A stretch of DNA of 64,000 nucleotides from Alphaproteobacteria bacterium (lineage in GTDB: Bacteria; Pseudomonadota; Alphaproteobacteria; Ferrovibrionales; Ferrovibrionaceae), in NCBI GenBank assembly GCA_017307375.1, contig JAFKFH010000003.1, positions 620,001 through 684,000 of the forward strand. The letters are read 5' to 3'. Shown in pieces: positions 38,635 through 42,256 of this stretch. The stretch's first letter is position 1. Each line of letters begins with the position of its first letter. The position numbers and the translations under genes were made by a program. The notes beneath the pieces were generated by a model. That model saw nothing but the letters and a program-made list of their open reading frames with translations. It was not told where the DNA came from and ran no database searches.

Positions 38635-38758
38635 AATTTGTCAGGATAAGCCGTTGAATTTCCACCGCGGAGTCGGATAATCCCGGCTCCGGAACATGTC
38701 GATGTCGGCGGTGCATGGGCCGGAGGCCGTCTCAGCCGCGCCGCCGACATGCGTAGCC

Positions 38759-39523
38759 ATGAAGCTCCCCCTTCTTGCCCTCGTCGTCCTTGCGATCCTG
38801 ACCGGGTCGGGACGGGTGTGGGCGCAGGGGGCGGCGATCCCCAATACCGGCACGCCGCTGATCACCGACCTGTCGGCGCATCTGATCGCGATCCGCTCGA
38901 ACTTCACCGGGACCAGCCTGCTGATCTTCGGCGCGATCGAGGAACAGGGCGATATCGTCGTCGTGGTGCGCGGCCCACCCGACACGGTGACGGTGCGCAA
39001 GAAGGATCGCGTCGCCGGCATGTGGCTGAACCGCGAGTCGGTCTCGTTCACCGAATTGCCGGCCTACTACAACCTGATCGCCAGCCGGCCGCTGTTCGAG
39101 ATCGCCTCGGTCGGCCTGTGGCAGCGGCTGCGCATCGGCGCCGACAACCTGCGCTATATCCCGACCCAGCCGCTCGACGATGCCGAACTGGCGCGCTTCC
39201 GCGACGCGGTCATCCGCGTGCGCAACGAACAGAAGCTGTTCCAGCAGGCCGGCACCGTCACGTTCCTCGGTCCCAAGCTGTTCCGCGCCCAGGTCGACTT
39301 TCCCGCGATCGTGCCGGTCGGCGTCTACCGCGTCGAAGTCTACCTGATCCGCGACGAGCGCGTGATCGCGGCCCAGGCCATCCCGCTCTTCATCAACAAG
39401 ACCGGCTTCGAGCGCGAGATCTTCGCCTTCGCCCACGAACACGCCCTCTATTACGGCGCGGCCTCGGTCGTGCTGGCGATGATGATCGGCTGGCTGGCCG
39501 CCTTGGTGATGCGGCGGAACTAA
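38759..39523 (+). CDS. TIGR02186-family membrane-anchored periplasmic protein
   Basis: A 254-residue protein with a signal peptide (MKLPLLALVVLAILTGSGRV, cleaved after WAQ) and a C-terminal transmembrane helix ending LAALVMRRN. The periplasmic part has IRSNFTGTSLLIFGAIEEQG, VVVVRGPPDTVTVRKKDRVAG and GMWLNRESVSF, typical of TIGR02186. In alphaproteobacteria this family is often next to a sulfite-exporter-type permease; none is here. The ATG at 38759 is chosen because it begins the signal peptide. Confidence 0.82.
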   Translation: MKLPLLALVVLAILTGSGRVWAQGAAIPNTGTPLITDLSAHLIAIRSNFTGTSLLIFGAIEEQGDIVVVVRGPPDTVTVRKKDRVAGMWLNRESVSFTELPAYYNLIASRPLFEIASVGLWQRLRIGADNLRYIPTQPLDDAELARFRDAVIRVRNEQKLFQQAGTVTFLGPKLFRAQVDFPAIVPVGVYRVEVYLIRDERVIAAQAIPLFINKTGFEREIFAFAHEHALYYGAASVVLAMMIGWLAALVMRRN

Positions 39524-39589: not shown

Positions 39590-40816
39590 ATGCCCGCATT
39601 CGTCAGGTCGGTGACGCTCAAGAATTATAAGAGTATTGCAGCGTGCAAGGTCGAATTGGGCGACTTGACCGTGCTTGTCGGGCCGAACGGCGCAGGCAAG
39701 AGCAACTTCGTCGACGCCATCAATCTCGTCGGCGAGGCGTTGCAAACAACGCTGGATCACGCTCTGCGCAAAAGAGGCGGTGTAAAGGAGGTTCGGCGCC
39801 GCTCGGGCGGGCATCCCACTCATTTTGCCATCCGCCTCGACCTTACCTTGCCGGGTGGTAACTCGGCTCGATACGCGATCAAGATCGGTGCCACGGATGA
39901 TGGATACAAAGTCGACCAGGAACAGGCGACGGTCTTCCGGTCGAACATCCCTCCGACGGCCGGCAATGGTCGCTTGTTCGGGGAGGCCGAGGCCCATTTC
40001 TCGGTCAAGGACGGCCAGGTCGTTGCGGCCCACAAGCGTCACGAGGCCCGTGTTCTACCCGATTCGCTTTATCTAACTGCGGTCAGTGGAACGGAGGAGT
40101 TCGCCGAACTGCATCGAGCGCTCTCGAGCATGGGGTTCTACAATATCAACCCCGATGTCATGCGCGAGCCGAAGAAGCATGACCGCGGCCTGATTCTGGC
40201 GCGCGATGGCAACAACGTCGCTGGCGTGATCAAGCGCATGGAGCGCGACAATCACGAGGGGCTGGAGCGGATCGGCGACTACATTCGCCGTATCGTTCCA
40301 GGGGTTGAACGGTTCAAGCATGAAGATCTCGGACCGGTGGAAACGGTGACTTTTTTCCAGAATGTCGCCGGTGCAACAGCACCTTGGCGATTCTTTGCCA
40401 GCAGCATGTCTGACGGAACACTGAGGGCGTTTGGCGTTCTGGTCGCCGTGTTTCAAGCCACCGGAGAGGTTCCCCTGGTCGGCATCGAAGAGCCGGAAGC
40501 CGCCATTCATCCCGGCGCCGCTGCGATCCTTGTCGATGCCCTGAAGGAAGCCTCGCGAAAGACTCAGGTCATCGTCACCAGCCACAGTCCCGAAGCCCTC
40601 GATTACCTGGGGGACGGGTCGGCAACGATCGTCGCCGTGAATGCTCGCGAAGGGCGAAGCGATATCGGTCCGCTCGATCCGGCATCGAGAACCGCCATAC
40701 AGCAGCGGCTGATGACAGCAGGTGAGTTGCAGCGCCAGGCACAGATCGAGCCGGATCCGGCTAGTATCCCCGAGGACATAACCCAGCGTGACTTGTTCGA
40801 GCGTGTCGATGCTTGA
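39590..40816 (+). CDS. AAA_21-type ATPase of an ATPase/TOPRIM two-gene module
   Basis: A 408-residue ATPase of the ABC/RecF/OLD type. Walker A is GPNGAGKSNF at residues ~31-40, the signature-like segment is SSMSDGTLRAFGVLVAV, Walker B is VGIEEPEAAIHPGA and the switch His is in VIVTSHSPEAL. ATG at 39590 is preceded by a GGAAG site; an upstream in-frame ATG lacks conserved sequence. The gene overlaps the following TOPRIM-like gene by 8 bp. It has lower GC and more A/T-ending codons than its neighbours, suggesting acquisition. Such pairs are seen in phage-defence systems. Confidence 0.85.
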   Translation: MPAFVRSVTLKNYKSIAACKVELGDLTVLVGPNGAGKSNFVDAINLVGEALQTTLDHALRKRGGVKEVRRRSGGHPTHFAIRLDLTLPGGNSARYAIKIGATDDGYKVDQEQATVFRSNIPPTAGNGRLFGEAEAHFSVKDGQVVAAHKRHEARVLPDSLYLTAVSGTEEFAELHRALSSMGFYNINPDVMREPKKHDRGLILARDGNNVAGVIKRMERDNHEGLERIGDYIRRIVPGVERFKHEDLGPVETVTFFQNVAGATAPWRFFASSMSDGTLRAFGVLVAVFQATGEVPLVGIEEPEAAIHPGAAAILVDALKEASRKTQVIVTSHSPEALDYLGDGSATIVAVNAREGRSDIGPLDPASRTAIQQRLMTAGELQRQAQIEPDPASIPEDITQRDLFERVDA

Positions 40817-41390
40817 GCGCCTCTTTCCTATTGTCGAAGGGCACGGAGAGGTTGAGGCGGTCCCCGTCTTGCTGCGTAGATTGGTGAGCCACCGAGGCGT
40901 GACCGTAGCGCCGGCATTTCGTCTGCCCAGGACCAAGATGACCGACTGCCAGGAGTTCAGGAGCGCCATTGCCTATGGTGCCTTGAAAGCCGGACCTGCA
41001 GGCGGCGTTCTGGTCATCCTGGATGCGGATGACGACCCTGCCTGCAGAATCGGCCCCATGCTGCTCGACATCGCTCGGACGATGGCGCGCGATTGCCCCG
41101 TCGGATTGGTCGCGGCTGAGCGCGAGTTCGAGGCGTGGCTGTTGGCGTCGGCGCTATCGCTGAGGGGGCATCGGCGCGTTCGGGACGACGCGGTGCCACC
41201 CGCCAACCCCGAAGCGATCCGGGATGCAAAGGGATATCTGTCGGCCAATATTCTGTTGCCTGATAAACCCTATGCGCCAACGGTGGATCAGGCTGCGCTG
41301 ACCAGTTGGCTTGATCCGTCCCTGGCGCGCAGCTGTTCGTCTTTTCTTAAACTGGAAAGGGATGTCGAGCGTCTGCTCGCGTCCCGATAG
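40809..41390 (+). CDS. DUF4276-family TOPRIM-like protein, partner of the ATPase
   Basis: A 193-residue protein. The TOPRIM glutamate is in FPIVEGHGEVEAVPVLLRRL and the acidic motif is VLVILDADDDPAC, giving a plausible divalent-metal site for nucleic acid cleavage. EREFEAWLLAS is another DUF4276 mark. ATG at 40809 overlaps the stop of the ATPase gene by 8 bp; an in-frame ATG at 40788 is a less likely alternative. By analogy with OLD- and PARIS-type pairs, the ATPase may control this nuclease-like subunit. It is convergent with the metallophosphoesterase gene. Confidence 0.78.
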   Translation: MLERLFPIVEGHGEVEAVPVLLRRLVSHRGVTVAPAFRLPRTKMTDCQEFRSAIAYGALKAGPAGGVLVILDADDDPACRIGPMLLDIARTMARDCPVGLVAAEREFEAWLLASALSLRGHRRVRDDAVPPANPEAIRDAKGYLSANILLPDKPYAPTVDQAALTSWLDPSLARSCSSFLKLERDVERLLASR

Positions 41391-41392
41391 AC

Positions 41393-42256
41393 TCAGCGCC
41401 TTGCCGTCGCCGCGGCGGCCATGTGGTCGCGCAACGATCCGTAGGGCTGGGGGAAGTCCATCAGATTGTTGGGCGCCAGCGTCGACGGGCGGTGCAACGC
41501 CGCCTCGACCTGGTCACCCTCGAGGCGATAGACCAGAAAGCCGACTTCCTTCGCGCCGATCACCGGCTGGAACTCGTCGGGCAGGATGAAGGCGGTCGAC
41601 GGCCCCCAGCCGTGCAGCACGCCGTGCACGCGGGTCAGGCGATGCTGGTGGACATGGCCCGAGGCGACGAGGCGCAGGCGGGTGGGTGCCAGCAGGCCGA
41701 GCAGCCGTTCGCGCGCGGCTGGCACGACGTAGCGGTGGTTGACCTCGGTTTCGGCCGGATGGTTCAGGAACAGCGGCTTGTGGATGAACAGGGCCACCGG
41801 CCGGCCGCGCGCCGCATGGGCCTCGTCGGCTAGAAAATCCCACTGTTCCGCCTCGGCGGCGATGCCCGATCCCATCAGCTGGGCATTCAGTCCGATCAGC
41901 CGGAAGTCGCCGGCCTCCGCGCCCCACCAGTCCGGACCCCAATGCGCGATGAAGCGCGCGCGCCGCTCGGGCGTGACCGGCTGCTTCGGCGGATGGGCGC
42001 CACCCGGATTGTCGCCGAGATCGTGATTGCCGGGCACCACGCGCCAGGCCGACGCGATCGCGTCATGCATCGGCCGGGCGTGGGCATGGTCGGCGTCCAG
42101 ATCGGCACCGTTGACGGTGATGTCGCCGGTATTGACCACGAGGTCGGGATCGAGGTCGTCGAGCGCGGCGATCGTCGCCTCGAAGTTCGGCACGAACTGC
42201 GGCGCGGTGCCCGAGAGATGCGTGTCGGTGATATGGGCGATCGTGAAGGCGGGCAT
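41393..42256 (-). CDS. Calcineurin-like metallophosphoesterase (CpdA-like)
   Basis: A 287-residue protein. All metal motifs are present: DTHLSG (DxH), NTGDITVNG (GD), PGNHDLGDN (GNHD), the His in FIHKPLF, and ASGHVHQHR (GHxH). The layout is that of the class III cyclic nucleotide phosphodiesterase and related glycerophosphodiesterase group. It is divergent from the ugp-like ABC importer genes, so a glycerophosphodiester substrate is a reasonable guess. It ends 2 bp after the convergent TOPRIM-like gene. Confidence 0.85.
   Translation of the reverse strand: MPAFTIAHITDTHLSGTAPQFVPNFEATIAALDDLDPDLVVNTGDITVNGADLDADHAHARPMHDAIASAWRVVPGNHDLGDNPGGAHPPKQPVTPERRARFIAHWGPDWWGAEAGDFRLIGLNAQLMGSGIAAEAEQWDFLADEAHAARGRPVALFIHKPLFLNHPAETEVNHRYVVPAARERLLGLLAPTRLRLVASGHVHQHRLTRVHGVLHGWGPSTAFILPDEFQPVIGAKEVGFLVYRLEGDQVEAALHRPSTLAPNNLMDFPQPYGSLRDHMAAAATARR

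Follow-up and report, generated by a model that had tools for sequence, protein, structure and literature searches.

Within a 64,000-nucleotide stretch of a genome from the Ferrovibrionaceae (contig JAFKFH010000003.1, positions 620,001 to 684,000; hereafter, the window), two overlapping genes encode an ATPase and a DUF4276 protein. Judging from profile matches to both components, this pair is a HEC-01 module, a candidate anti-phage system that is already in PADLOC; it is a further copy and not a new system. We propose that the pair is probably a horizontally acquired two-gene defence module, in which a TOPRIM nuclease is unleashed on infection. We prefer to read it as a mobile two-gene defence module because its architecture, motifs, distribution, and composition fit. 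ATPase/TOPRIM pairs have repeatedly emerged as immune systems, and HEC-01 is catalogued and scarcely described. The locus is a clean, isolated two-gene copy of HEC-01, beside a left flank that is conserved in relatives. Its study adds evidence that the two genes are nearly always found together, that the two proteins have diverged in parallel, and that a candidate active site, open to testing by point mutation, is conserved.

An overlapping pair of genes that matches HEC-01

The features of the locus, in positions of the window, are:

38750..39523, + strand: Alph_Pro_TM gene (Pfam), the left flank, outside the module; the last gene of a block that is conserved in the family
39590..40816, + strand: HEC-01A-type ABC/AAA_21 ATPase, 408 amino acids (PADLOC, Pfam, motif conservation, structural model)
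40809..40816, + strand: 8-base overlap of the reading frames of the ATPase and the DUF4276 protein (sequence)
40809..41390, + strand: HEC-01B-type DUF4276 protein, 193 amino acids, a predicted TOPRIM-fold metal-dependent nuclease (Pfam, PADLOC, structural model, residues)
41393..42256, - strand: calcineurin-like phosphoesterase gene (Pfam), the right flank, outside the module

A preliminary description had noticed an ATPase gene overlapping a TOPRIM-like gene at 39590-41390, and we agree: both open reading frames are intact, they lie in different frames, and the 8-base overlap suggests that their translation may be coupled. In Pfam, the ATPase matches AAA_21 (E = 9.8e-30, 105 bits) and AAA_15 (E = 1.6e-20, 74.5 bits). 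The DUF4276 protein matches PF14103 (E = 7e-10, 39.9 bits, against a cut-off of 30.2 bits) and no other Pfam family at E ≤ 0.01. In PADLOC, the ATPase matches PDLC04178 (HEC-01A) over residues 3-404 (E = 1e-143, 477 bits), and the DUF4276 protein matches PDLC04196 (HEC-01B) over residues 4-191 (E = 2.3e-58). Besides these strong matches of both components, the gene order, the orientation, and the adjacency or overlap are like those of HEC-01, and we found nothing that sets the window's pair apart. The same two profiles are also matched by pairs on Streptomyces plasmids and in a distant genome from the same class. No NCBIfam model scores above its threshold for either protein, and the best PHROGs matches of the ATPase are related families without a function.

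The name HEC-01 refers to a "Hma-embedded candidate" (Payne et al. 2024, as cited in the portion of PMC12988326 that we consulted). That portion credits several HECs with demonstrated activity, without mentioning HEC-01 by name. The preliminary description had suggested a candidate ATPase/TOPRIM defence module, which is what the PADLOC search returned, the defence role being putative. It had also suggested a less-described variant. "Less described" stands, as we found no mention of DUF4276 in the literature that we searched and almost nothing on HEC-01 either. Any claim that the system is new fails, since HEC-01 is already catalogued.

Upstream of the pair are Mpo1-like and Alph_Pro_TM genes, and downstream are the metallophosphoesterase and a sugar ABC-transporter operon (all by Pfam). 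We compared three flanking genes to PADLOC and none of them matches; the preliminary description had called the surroundings housekeeping-type. No tRNA or Rfam RNA was found in the window, nor did we find a sigma-70-like promoter or a reliable terminator.

The ATPase and the DUF4276 protein occur together

Across 60 loci from other phyla that were seeded on the DUF4276 protein, a matching ATPase is present at 58, normally directly upstream and on the same strand. The two loci without it (L033 and L039) start no more than about 150 bases from where their sequence ends. Because these 60 loci were chosen by their motifs, we added an unseeded test. Of the 30 DUF4276 loci that the Pfam profile picked out in genomes of the phylum, 29 have an adjacent ATPase of the HEC-01A type, and the single unpaired locus is 162 bases from the end of its contig. 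The pairwise divergences of the two proteins are also correlated (Mantel r = 0.78 across 45 loci; none of 2000 permutations gave as high a value). The pairing is near-obligate.

Some loci have additional copies. At one (L008:4694-7938), the HEC-01 pair is followed by another HEC-01A ATPase in tandem, and another (L053:4841-9280) apparently contains two HEC-01 pairs in succession. Also, some members of four families of the phylum (f192, f197, f202, and f204) have 4 to 7 DUF4276 matches per genome, which suggests lineage-specific expansion of HEC-01-type pairs.

The ATPase has the motifs of a working enzyme

The ATPase has a Walker A motif (GPNGAGKSN, residues 31-39), a signature motif (SDGTLR, 274-279), a Walker B region (EEPE, 300-303), a D-loop histidine (H307), and an H-loop histidine (H332). 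Among 52 sequences, G31, N33, G36, K37, S38, N39, S274, G276, and R279 are invariant, as are E300, P302, E303, H307, T330, and S333; E301 is kept in 51 and H332 in 50. The structural model (pLDDT 93) matches SMC/Rad50 heads and PtuA, with Z of about 20-23. In P2 OLD, four residues are required in vivo: K37, D299, H306, and H332 (PMC7049728). By motif, their equivalents in the window's ATPase are K37, E300, H307, and H332. Given these motifs and the model, it should be a working ABC-type enzyme.

The DUF4276 protein is a predicted TOPRIM-fold nuclease

Conservation in the DUF4276 protein centers on acidic residues. Among 49 homologues, E10, E14, D72, E106, and E108 are invariant (E106 and E108 are in the motif REFEAW), and position 74 is mostly D or E (31 D, 12 E, 5 N, and 1 H). 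The motif VEGHGEVE was one of the search seeds, so its invariance among these homologues is partly built in. In the window's protein and four homologues that were not selected by motif, E10, E14, D72, D74, E106, and E108 are all kept, and E16 is not. The more distant DUF4276 proteins retain an E-G-x-T/S-E motif, and several of them have HEFEAW/F. Thus, the TOPRIM-like residues that had been picked out earlier (the glutamate in VEGHGE and the acidic LDADDD) are conserved in the family, in seeded and non-seeded homologues alike.

The six residues are of the metal-ligand type and form a candidate active site. In BpOLD, the ligands of metal A are E400, D455, and D457, and those of metal B are E404, T506, and E508 (PMC7049728). 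From the order of the motifs and their local spacing, we infer that E10/E14 would correspond one-to-one to E400/E404, D72/D74 to D455/D457, and E106/E108 to T506/E508. K141, which is conserved in 48 of the 49 homologues, might be the catalytic Lys/Arg.

The structural model of the DUF4276 protein has a pLDDT of 95. In a structural search (VIA), its three best matches, with Z = 9.1, 8.2, and 8.1, are all to the C-terminal TOPRIM region of a Class 2 OLD protein. These align 161-167 of the 193 residues (161 for the match with Z = 9.1), while most of the unrelated matches align about 115-130. The margin in Z is modest, as unrelated proteins reach 8.0 and 7.8, and TsOLD itself has 7.5. AriB is not among the structural matches, and its absence is uninformative. 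Plain Foldseek with this model gave nothing below E = 1e-3, hhalign showed no significant similarity between the DUF4276 alignment and six OLD-like TOPRIM regions (probability 3%), and sequence searches of the PDB, with the single sequence or a profile, found nothing. From the model and the residues together, the DUF4276 protein is probably a TOPRIM-fold metal-dependent nuclease.

Foreign composition and sporadic distribution

The preliminary description had reported lower GC and different codon usage for the pair, and three measures bear this out. The GC content is 0.600 for the ATPase gene and 0.622 for the DUF4276 gene, compared to a mean of 0.676 for the 42 other long open reading frames in the window. 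GC at third codon positions (GC3) is 0.69 for both genes, compared to 0.86 for the others. In a scan of codon-usage likelihood, the ATPase gene (z = -3.0) and the DUF4276 gene (z = -4.2) are both below every other reading frame. The comparison set includes a few spurious antisense frames, which makes the contrast conservative.

The pair is missing from the equivalent place in 60 relatives. The Alph_Pro_TM gene is present in 46 of 61 genomes, and in most of the family relatives compared it is collinear with Mpo1; the gene after it varies among relatives, whereas the left block stays conserved. The phosphoesterase gene on the right has good relatives in few genomes only. So the pair is not a core, syntenic feature of ordinary composition: there are relatives without it, and its composition is outlying. 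Relatives share the left flank only, and the genus is represented by just one genome among those compared, hence we could not reconstruct an exact empty site. We did not identify an insertion boundary; local repeats at the locus look like chance matches.

Within the class, the DUF4276 protein is found in just 4 of 385 genomes, counting the window's genome, which has a single DUF4276 match. Among the 60 related genomes, the nearest relatives of the ATPase are about 30% identical and are located elsewhere. The ATPase tree mixes phyla, and most of its large groups need several changes; this mixing does not prove transfer, because bins may contain stray contigs and paralogues may split groups. From sequence comparisons, the best reading is that the pair is a horizontally acquired module. 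The DUF4276 protein has three matches on plasmids, and the pair is present on both of those that we examined in detail; the ATPase has no match to plasmids at E = 1e-20. A scan of viral contigs found no relative.

We also noticed a second HEC-01A-like ATPase in the window's genome (29% identical; L145:12806-13954, - strand; contig 2, near 109.8-111.0 kb). It has no DUF4276 partner, and a dnaN-recF-gyrB cluster is some 6 kb away. The sole match to the DUF4276 protein that is labelled as phage lies close to the end of MT835995 ("Bacteriophage sp."; L119:5998-6567), a scaffold of faecal origin that is unverified.

Proposed function and alternatives

We propose that the SMC/Rad50/OLD-type ATPase (HEC-01A) would act as both sensor and scaffold, and would dimerise or oligomerise upon ATP. 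The DUF4276 nuclease (HEC-01B) would be restrained by the ATPase or recruited to it. Phage infection would change the state of the ATPase and release the nuclease, which would then stop the infection by cutting either the phage's DNA or some nucleic acid of the host (tRNA, for example). Our inferences in this scheme are that the DUF4276 protein is a nuclease, that it forms a complex with the ATPase, what triggers it and what it cuts, and that the pair serves in defence. OLD, Gabija, and PARIS all combine an ATPase with a TOPRIM domain (PMC10568477, PMC9122126). Counting against a defence role, Cran1, an archaeal ATPase-nuclease of the OLD family, functions in the cell cycle (PMC12796447).

What the nuclease might cut depends on which known system is the better guide. 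If the pair works like OLD or Gabija, then the TOPRIM protein would cut DNA, preferentially phage DNA, and the ATPase would control the cutting through its binding of nucleotide. We put this slightly short of an even chance. The pair resembles Class 2 OLD and GajA in its predicted TOPRIM fold, the order of its metal-ligand-type residues, and its ABC ATPase motifs. More specifically, Class 2 OLD C-terminal regions are the top structural matches, the acidic residues agree with those in BpOLD in order and local spacing, and the ATPase has equivalents of the four P2 OLD residues. But the modest margin in Z weakens the argument, as does a residue mapping drawn from motif order rather than residue-level superposition, and RNA-cutting TOPRIMs have similar ligands. 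The pair is not a single-chain OLD (Classes 1-3), as the ATPase and the TOPRIM protein are on two open reading frames in different frames. It is not Gabija either: no UvrD-like helicase (GajB) adjoins it, and the flanking genes are Alph_Pro_TM and the phosphoesterase.

A strictly PARIS-like mechanism seems unlikely to us. In it, a phage anti-restriction protein would be sensed by the ATPase, and the TOPRIM protein, once freed, would act as a tRNase and so halt translation. The layout does favor this mechanism: as with AriA and AriB, the ATPase and the TOPRIM-type effector are split over two adjacent genes, the one for the AAA_21/AAA_15 ATPase first and the one for the small TOPRIM-type protein second. 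The ATPase has weak matches to AriA profiles (8.9e-29) and exceeds the PARIS thresholds (105 bits for AAA_21 and 74.5 bits for AAA_15, vs. 27 and 32 bits; PMC9122126), and AriB is a Toprim tRNase (PMC12409363). However, the effector has DUF4276 instead of the DUF4435 that defines AriB (PMC9122126), and OLD DNases rank highest among the fold matches (AriB is missing from the list, which is uninformative). Membership in PARIS fails because the DUF4276 protein lacks DUF4435 (PF14491), and PF14491 has no match in the window's genome. We also considered that DUF4276/HEC-01 might represent a class of its own within OLD-family immunity, split over two proteins and apart from PARIS. The ATPase and TOPRIM subunits would form a complex with an E-x3-E / DxD / E-x-E active site, which would respond to a separate trigger and might act on a substrate unlike those of the OLD DNases or the AriB tRNase. 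We offer this tentatively and lean against it.

Could the pair have no role in defence? A selfish toxin-antitoxin or a housekeeping module (chromosome maintenance) would fit with the mostly ordinary gene neighbourhoods (see below), and Cran1 is a related OLD-family ATPase-nuclease that is a cell-cycle factor. But the sporadic distribution and foreign composition speak against a core function, and in PARIS, if the analogy holds, losing either gene is not toxic (PMC9122126), which would argue against a toxin-antitoxin. We consider such a module quite improbable. It is more doubtful still, and very improbable in our view, that the pair is a recently acquired, decaying, non-functional passenger. 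Its codon usage is atypical, and there is no close relative for a test of selection; but the reading frames are intact, the overlap is precise, and every invariant motif residue is kept.

Three other systems share parts of this architecture. The ATPase is related to MAD3 of MADS (AAA_21), but scores just 108 bits against the NCBIfam cut-off of 420, and the genes flanking the window's pair do not include a MADS methyltransferase. It shares its fold with PtuA of Septu and retrons (Z of about 20-21), but its partner is of the TOPRIM type instead of the HNH protein PtuB. As for retrons, Rfam has no match in the window and the immediate neighbours are not reverse transcriptases.

Genes near HEC-01 pairs

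Among 144 genes flanking 46 pairs, at least 7 have strong matches to PADLOC, compared to 2 of 124 control genes. These neighbours include extra copies of HEC-01A, two type III methyltransferases, and two PDC-S05. By Pfam, the genes around the 46 pairs are mostly for ordinary metabolism. The excess of defence genes is small and is partly due to tandem HEC-01A copies; most pairs stand alone. On a plasmid of Streptomyces sp. NBC_00445, a HEC-01 pair is about 1.1 kb from the Gabija genes gajAB (L117:6742-13554). We also noticed a Fic-type toxin-antitoxin just upstream on this plasmid, which gives a compact defence cluster.
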